Shown piece by piece: positions 15,006-15,773 of a stretch of 38,763 nt of DNA. The translations under genes were made by a program, and so were the position numbers. The DNA comes from Candidatus Nitrosopumilus sp. (lineage in GTDB: Archaea; Thermoproteota; Nitrososphaeria; Nitrososphaerales; Nitrosopumilaceae), in assembly GCA_021268355.1 (NCBI GenBank), contig JAJETY010000012.1, positions 1-38,763 of the forward strand. The letters run 5' to 3'. The notes beneath the pieces were generated by a model. It did no database searches. It was not told where the DNA came from and worked only from the letters and a program-made list of their open reading frames with translations. How positions within the stretch are numbered: the stretch's first letter is position 1; the number at the start of each line of letters is the position of its first letter.

Positions 15006-15248
15006 TCAGGGATTTTCTTTCTTGAATATTCTAATTGCTTCCAAATGGGAACAATTAGCTTTAAGGCCCTTTCCATGATGAAACTTGTAAAAATTTTTGA
15101 ATCCAGGACATTCACATGTATCAGACGTTACAAAATATGATTTATCAGGATCAGATGATGATTTTATTTGGAACAAATCATCTTCGATTTTTACAACTCC
15201 CCCATTTTCAACAAGTTTTTTTGCTTTTCGAATTGTGTTTGCACTCAT
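15006..15248 (-). CDS. SWIM zinc-finger protein (80 aa)
   Basis: The protein is essentially one SWIM finger. The pattern CxC...CxH is seen as 'DTCECPGFKNF' and 'LKANCSHLEAIRIFKKE'. SWIM domains bind DNA or protein and occur in SNF2 ATPases, MuDR transposases and Sws1-type recombination factors. A free-standing SWIM protein in archaea could act with a recombinase; this is inference. Starts at ATG 15248 and ends convergent with the ArsC-like gene (two bases apart). Confidence 0.8.
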   Translation of the reverse strand: MSANTIRKAKKLVENGGVVKIEDDLFQIKSSSDPDKSYFVTSDTCECPGFKNFYKFHHGKGLKANCSHLEAIRIFKKENP

Positions 15249-15266: not shown

Positions 15267-15575
15267 TCATTTTTTACTCTTTAATTTTTTTAACATGTTT
15301 GCCCAATCTTCATCCTGAGCCATAGCATTTAGATATAGAAGTTCAAATGTCCATGCGATAATTTCACTCCAAATTGCTTTAAGAGATTCATCATCAGTCC
15401 ATAAAACGCTTGTTTTTACGGCATTCATAGCTAGAATATTTTTTGAGTTTTTTGTGGGATTCCTGTTCCATTTTGTTATCACTCTATCACAAAATTCCAA
15501 AATTTCTTTTTTAGTTAGAACTAATTTGTCAGGATCAAAGGCATCATAAGATTTGGACTTACGAGGATTTTTCAT
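15267..15575 (-). CDS. Hypothetical helical protein (102 aa)
   Basis: Unrecognised. The N-terminus is basic ('MKNPRKSKSYDAFDP'), and the body looks helical with Trp residues ('SLKAIWSEIIAWTFELLYLN'). No membrane helix, metal motif or signal peptide is convincing. It starts at ATG 15575 and ends 18 bases before the SWIM gene on the same strand, so the two may share a transcript. Confidence 0.6.
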   Translation of the reverse strand: MKNPRKSKSYDAFDPDKLVLTKKEILEFCDRVITKWNRNPTKNSKNILAMNAVKTSVLWTDDESLKAIWSEIIAWTFELLYLNAMAQDEDWANMLKKLKSKK

Positions 15576-15631
15576 ATTTCATCAATGTACTGTTCAATTA
15601 TAATTTTTTAGAGTAATAATTTCATAAATTC

Positions 15632-15640
15632 TTAAATATC
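15632..15640 (+). promoter_or_regulatory. TATA box ahead of the candidate structured RNA
   Basis: TTAAATATC matches an archaeal TATA element. Its centre lies about 25 bases before position 15660, exactly where the 8-bp RNA stem would begin. A second TATA-like ATTATAAAC (15743-15751) is placed at the proper distance for the permease start at 15774, so the upstream element seems to serve another transcript. Confidence 0.5.
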
Positions 15641-15644
15641 TTTT

Positions 15645-15664
15645 TCGTCATCATTTAATGACGA
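15645..15664. promoter_or_regulatory. Possible operator palindrome at the RNA transcription start
   Basis: TCGTCAT-CATTTA-ATGACGA is a perfect 7-base inverted repeat with a 6-base spacer, straddling the predicted start of the RNA. It could be a repressor site. If transcription began upstream, its right half (GACGA) would instead compete with the 15660-15715 stem. Confidence 0.4.
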
Positions 15665-15715
15665 GAGATCTGCTTTTCTGCCCAGGATATGCCTAGAGTT
15701 CGTTTCACTCTCGTC
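15660..15715 (+). ncRNA. Candidate small structured RNA
   Basis: GACGAGAG (15660-15667) pairs perfectly with CTCTCGTC (15708-15715), enclosing 40 bases. Inside, ATCTG (15668-15672) can pair with CAG-GAT (15683-15688) with one bulge. AGAG near 15695 can also pair with CTCT at 15708, an alternative that would break the outer stem. The segment has its own TATA box and the next gene has another, so it is probably a free-standing RNA of roughly 60-80 bases rather than a leader. It matches no tRNA, box C/D or riboswitch class I can recognise. Confidence 0.45.
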
Positions 15716-15773
15716 AAATTAGTTTTAAATCAAGTTTCAAATGATTATAAACTGATTTTCATATTTCTGATTA

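Follow-up and report, generated by a model that had tools for sequence, protein, structure and literature searches.

A probable stand-alone small RNA gene at a fixed chromosomal locus in Nitrosopumilus

The element and its chromosomal locus

The window analyzed here is a 38.8-kb stretch of Nitrosopumilus DNA. Within it, GACGAGAG at 15660-15667 pairs with CTCTCGTC at 15708-15715 to give the perfect 8-bp stem enclosing 40 nt that a preliminary description had pointed out; a ninth pair, 15659 T with 15716 A, lengthens this stem (P1). P1 is the sole perfect 8-bp inverted repeat in the window with 30- to 50-nt spacing and at least five G-C pairs, compared with 0.3 such GC-rich repeats expected in shuffled sequences. 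Without the G-C filter, perfect 8-bp repeats are common (36 observed versus 31 expected). The folding energy is modest (z of -1.2 for the 56-mer and -2.3 with flanks) and by itself is no proof of a structured RNA. The features assigned to the locus from the comparison of homologs are as follows.

15626..15627, + strand: BRE-like AA at -34/-33 (A in 38/39 and 37/39 homologs)
15630..15637, + strand: TATA box TCTTAAAT, -30 to -23 from the stem (-28 T in 38/39 and -25 A in 37/39 homologs)
15660..15715, + strand: predicted small RNA, structured part, 56 nt (38 genus genomes and G052, same locus)
15660..15667, + strand: P1 5' arm GACGAGAG (94.8% of P1 cells paired in 34 distinct sequences)
15672..15673, + strand: P1b GC, pairing with 15702-15703 as G-U and C-G (98.5% of cells paired; G-U to A-U and C-G to U-G changes)
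15676..15680, + strand: P2 5' arm TTCTG (98.2% of cells paired)
15681..15693, + strand: apical loop, with CC kept, a variable middle, and GCC kept (alignment)
15694..15698, + strand: P2 3' arm TAGAG, TAGAA in most relatives (exchanges at 17-39 and 18-38)
15702..15703, + strand: P1b 3' side GT (pairing in the alignment)
15708..15715, + strand: P1 3' arm CTCTCGTC (alignment and pairing)
15723..15726, + strand: U-tract, where the transcript probably ends (downstream TTTT in 37/39 homologs)

Every accepted orthologue with flanking sequence lies at the same chromosomal place, where an ArsC-like gene (+), a gene for an 80-amino-acid cysteine-rich protein (-), and often one for a 102-amino-acid protein (-) precede the RNA (+), which is followed by a peptide-type permease gene (+), sometimes with zinc-ribbon and YwbE-like genes in between. 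The 80-amino-acid protein, encoded at 15006-15248 (-) in the window and adjoining the RNA locus, is conserved and SWIM-like by eye, with no Pfam match. The 102-amino-acid protein (15267-15575, -) is likewise conserved and has no Pfam match; its gene is absent from part of the genus.

A BLAST-type search found the element to be ~80 to 86% conserved in 40 relatives. In most of them several hundred base pairs separate it from the conserved permease start, so it is conserved in its own right. The covariance search in related genomes that had been proposed earlier detected one orthologous copy in 38 of the 95 genus genomes, with E values from 3e-7 to 6e-21, plus one in G052, which belongs to another genus of the same family; no further orthologues were found in a phylum-wide search of about 400 genomes. 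One candidate (L101 in G116, E value of 8e-4) was left uncounted, since it lies away from the syntenic locus, and weak model matches in other families, together with pattern matches in non-Nitrosopumilus or viral sequences, were rejected as being in coding frames, low scoring, or off locus.

The other 57 genus genomes, some of which are incomplete, gave no match, so the RNA is dispensable; several relatives keep most of the gene order at the locus and have no RNA. On the permease tree, presence or absence of the RNA changes ~8 times, at least five of these changes being forced by well-supported branches, and the count is unsure, since two loci scored as absent (L006 and L011) are on contigs that stop near the permease. 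The simplest reading of this distribution would be that the RNA was ancestral in the genus and has been lost repeatedly.

Promoter, boundaries, and predicted fold

A TATA box had been reported about 25 bases ahead of the RNA. The sequence in question, TCTTAAAT, ends ~23 to 24 bases before the stem, and the position of the BRE/TATA is constant across 39 homologs. The information profile of these 39 distinct sequences peaks at the TATA box (-30 to -24) and at the BRE-like AA (-34/-33), is close to background from -6 to -1, and rises abruptly at +1, the first base of the stem; positions +1 to +56 are highly conserved except in the loop, and conservation ends past the 3' arm. TTTT occurs within 35 nt downstream in 37/39 homologs versus within 35 nt upstream in 7/39. 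A heterologous test has demonstrated termination at U-tracts with aCPSF1 for a thaumarchaeal orthologue (PMC8716108). A promoter, sharp boundaries, and a U-tract are the layout expected of an archaeal small RNA gene, and we infer that the locus is transcribed. Between the TATA box and the start, at about -18 to -12, many species outside the clade of the window carry a GATCGCG-like motif, a possible regulator site.

The pairing pattern was assessed in 34 distinct sequences, in which 96.4% of cells were paired overall, compared with 37 to 51% when the partners were slid by 1 to 3 columns. Most changes in the stems are one-sided and G-U compatible: in P2, the 17-39 pair changes from U-A to U-G in ten sequences, and in P1b, 13-44 changes from G-U to A-U and 14-43 from C-G to U-G. 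The search for covarying stem positions, which the preliminary description had advised, yielded two double changes, U-A to C-G at 18-38 in P2 (L040) and a change to A-U at 8-49 (L099). Compensatory changes are few (2 of 15 pairs), because the sequence is nearly invariant. The stems themselves are conserved among the relatives, so the outcome of no stem conservation, which would have spoken against the RNA, did not occur.

Read on the plus strand, the alignment contains 81 G-U cells versus 8 A-C cells, indicating that the RNA is the plus strand. The predicted P2 helix is supported by U-A/U-G/C-G exchanges that are valid on this strand only. Support for P1 in the orthologues comes mainly from conservation, and its arms are conserved so strongly that they may do more than pair. 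At its ninth position, P1 has A-U, U-A, and G-U pairs in alternation (26/39 paired versus 19 in shuffled sequences, with kinship uncontrolled). An alternative hairpin, 13-19/27-33, which appears in some minimum free energy folds (e.g., that of L009), was discarded, as 162 of 238 cells were paired, no better than in shuffles. The internal AGAG that had been offered as an alternative partner of the P1 3' arm is present at 15695-15698, but this pairing is not conserved; 24 of 34 homologs have AGAA.

The RNA also occurs in two variant forms. A second copy of the core, in G130 (L104:1543-1603, -), adjoins small zinc-ribbon genes and is closed by an unrelated 11-bp helix (chance of 0.0004). G139 has a decayed relative of this copy in the corresponding position (L162); none was found there in G000, G142, G125, or G138. 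What the second copy has retained is the core rather than P1, so it is probably the core that does the work. The RNA of G052, at the same locus in this sister genus, is a 78-nt form (L100:1564-1641, -) in which P2 is CUCU/AGAG, with C-G at 17-39, and the apical arm is lengthened by a 6-bp helix.

Partner searches and alternative explanations

The sequence had been introduced as a structured RNA preceding peptide-permease genes, and its position in the window, on the same strand and with the permease start ~60 nt downstream, would suit a leader or riboswitch of the permease operon. This association did not survive comparison. The RNA-permease distance is 400 to 1,000 nt in most homologs (range of ~100 to 1,000), YwbE-like and zinc-ribbon genes intervene in the relatives whose locus was read, and the permease is kept in relatives that have no RNA; in the window, moreover, it has its own TATA box, TTATAAAC at 15745-15752, as described previously. 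We regard a permease leader as very improbable. The same can be said of a neighboring gene's terminator hairpin or a short peptide gene. A hairpin followed by a T-run, beside which a convergent YwbE-like gene ends in some genomes, resembles a terminator, but no gene ends there in the window, where the core is still conserved, and the core is more strongly conserved than a terminator would require. An ATG that could start a peptide, at window position 15690, is not conserved, and the loop carries frame-changing indels. The alignment already goes far to refute both readings.

The size of the RNA and its hairpin with an internal loop would fit an H/ACA (pseudouridylation) guide, or a C/D (methylation) guide. 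However, the aligned sequences have neither the conserved ACA at the 3' end nor a kink-turn motif, and C (RUGAUGA) and D (CUGA) boxes are absent from the alignment. Nor did complementarity to rRNA exceed that of shuffles in an ungapped test of the whole RNA against the rRNA region of G007. No Rfam family is matched, and we give a guide RNA very little weight.

Among mRNAs, a pattern for the core, allowing up to 3 mismatches in 24 positions and with three unspecified bases picked after a match had been seen, found other matches in the 95 genomes in one motif only; from its protein motif in copies L106, L108, and L112, we take this to be uvrB. The reversed control pattern gave 0 matches. At the ENYSRHFDGRKA codons, the antisense strand of uvrB is similar to the RNA core and shares its 8-nt spacing; L108 comes from another family. 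The likeness is striking, since no further class of sites in the 95 genomes, the RNA itself aside, comes within 3 mismatches, and it could mean that the core pairs with uvrB mRNA as an antisense RNA. The pairing energies argue against coevolution, however: own pairs give -21.7, swapped pairs -21.4, and pairs with uvrB from RNA-lacking genomes a slightly better -23.8 kcal/mol. The motif also occurs in genomes without the RNA, the site is within the coding region, 15% of random synonymous uvrB versions pair equally well, and the unspecified bases of the pattern were post hoc. We consider a uvrB antisense role improbable. A site matching GTGAAAAGAATTCAATGC recurred across most of 14 genomes and was set aside, as it lies mid-gene in one conserved coding sequence, whose conservation accounts for the recurrence. 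Exact GGCAGAAAAGCA gave no match beyond the RNA locus itself, and no recurrent mRNA sites were found beyond conserved coding sequence.

Finally, the element might act as DNA, as an inverted repeat bound by protein or as a recombination or replication site. Its single copy and fixed locus, the conservation of the P1 arms as sequence, and the GC richness of the repeat would be in keeping with this. Yet the G-U tolerance of the P2 changes holds on one strand only, the element lies at precisely the start-site distance from the conserved BRE/TATA, a U-tract follows, and losses among relatives are many, leaving a DNA-level element unlikely, if less so than the alternatives above.

Proposed action and significance

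The comparison supports well the gene, its strand and boundaries, its fold, and its locus, and we are highly confident that a stand-alone structured RNA gene exists here. In the model we propose, polymerase would start at or just before 15660 from the RNA's own BRE/TATA and stop near 15726, within the U-tract, so that the RNA would be ~56 to 67 nt long. The transcript would fold into a rod. Its closing stem, P1 (8 to 9 bp), would lead by way of a small internal loop to a 2-bp step, and this in turn, across an internal loop of pyrimidines, to P2 (5 bp), capped by an apical loop whose CC and GCC are kept and whose middle varies. The part enclosed by P1, the conserved core, would do the work, with P1 chiefly holding and protecting it. 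Most likely the RNA would act in trans, its core either pairing with an mRNA or serving as the docking site for an RNA-binding protein. Since no convincing pairing partner emerged in rRNA, uvrB, or other mRNAs, a trans-acting regulatory RNA is the best-supported mechanism, one that we hold to be about evenly balanced between right and wrong. For the explanation as a whole, a stand-alone Nitrosopumilus sRNA gene with its own promoter, a rod fold, and most likely action in trans, we lean toward acceptance.

The proposal of a new small structured RNA outside the known classes holds up, given that it has a promoter of its own and sharp boundaries, keeps to one locus, varies in ways consistent with the structure, and matches no Rfam 15 family above the gathering score in the window or at seven related loci; a further search yielded hits at chance level only. 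In the openly accessible papers that we searched, there was no report of a Nitrosopumilus ncRNA gene family or of a matching RNA. Should it function as archaeal intergenic sRNAs do (PMC5867862), the RNA would represent a new family among them. The Methanosarcina mazei sRNA162, sRNA154, and sRNA41 (PMC3510493, PMC5867862) are likewise small, stand-alone intergenic genes, conserved within their genus and with stable stem-loops and conserved loops, a likeness of kind that claims no relation in sequence or structure. Archaeal H/ACA sRNAs are similar in being ~55- to 70-nt hairpins with an internal loop; unlike them, the Nitrosopumilus RNA has no ACA, kink-turn, or rRNA complementarity above shuffles. 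Metatranscriptomes (mdRNA-Seq) have also yielded marine archaeal noncoding RNAs (PMC5069720); Tan1, an archaeal ncRNA described as unknown, is set apart by its description as euryarchaeal and 229 nt long (PMC5069720).

More tentatively, this could be the first genus-wide trans-acting regulatory RNA described for Nitrosopumilus, with a swappable closing stem that would present a bipartite core, UGCUUUUCUGCC...GCCUAGAAUUCGUUUCA, to dock a dedicated protein or pair with mRNA, and with a core that could be duplicated to new loci. Nitrosopumilus species oxidize ammonia and abound in the ocean. For posttranscriptional regulation in these archaea, an sRNA that is compact, well bounded, and single copy, whose promoter is defined and which is present in named genomes (N. 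salaria BD31 and SCGC AAA799-D11), would be a directly testable entry.
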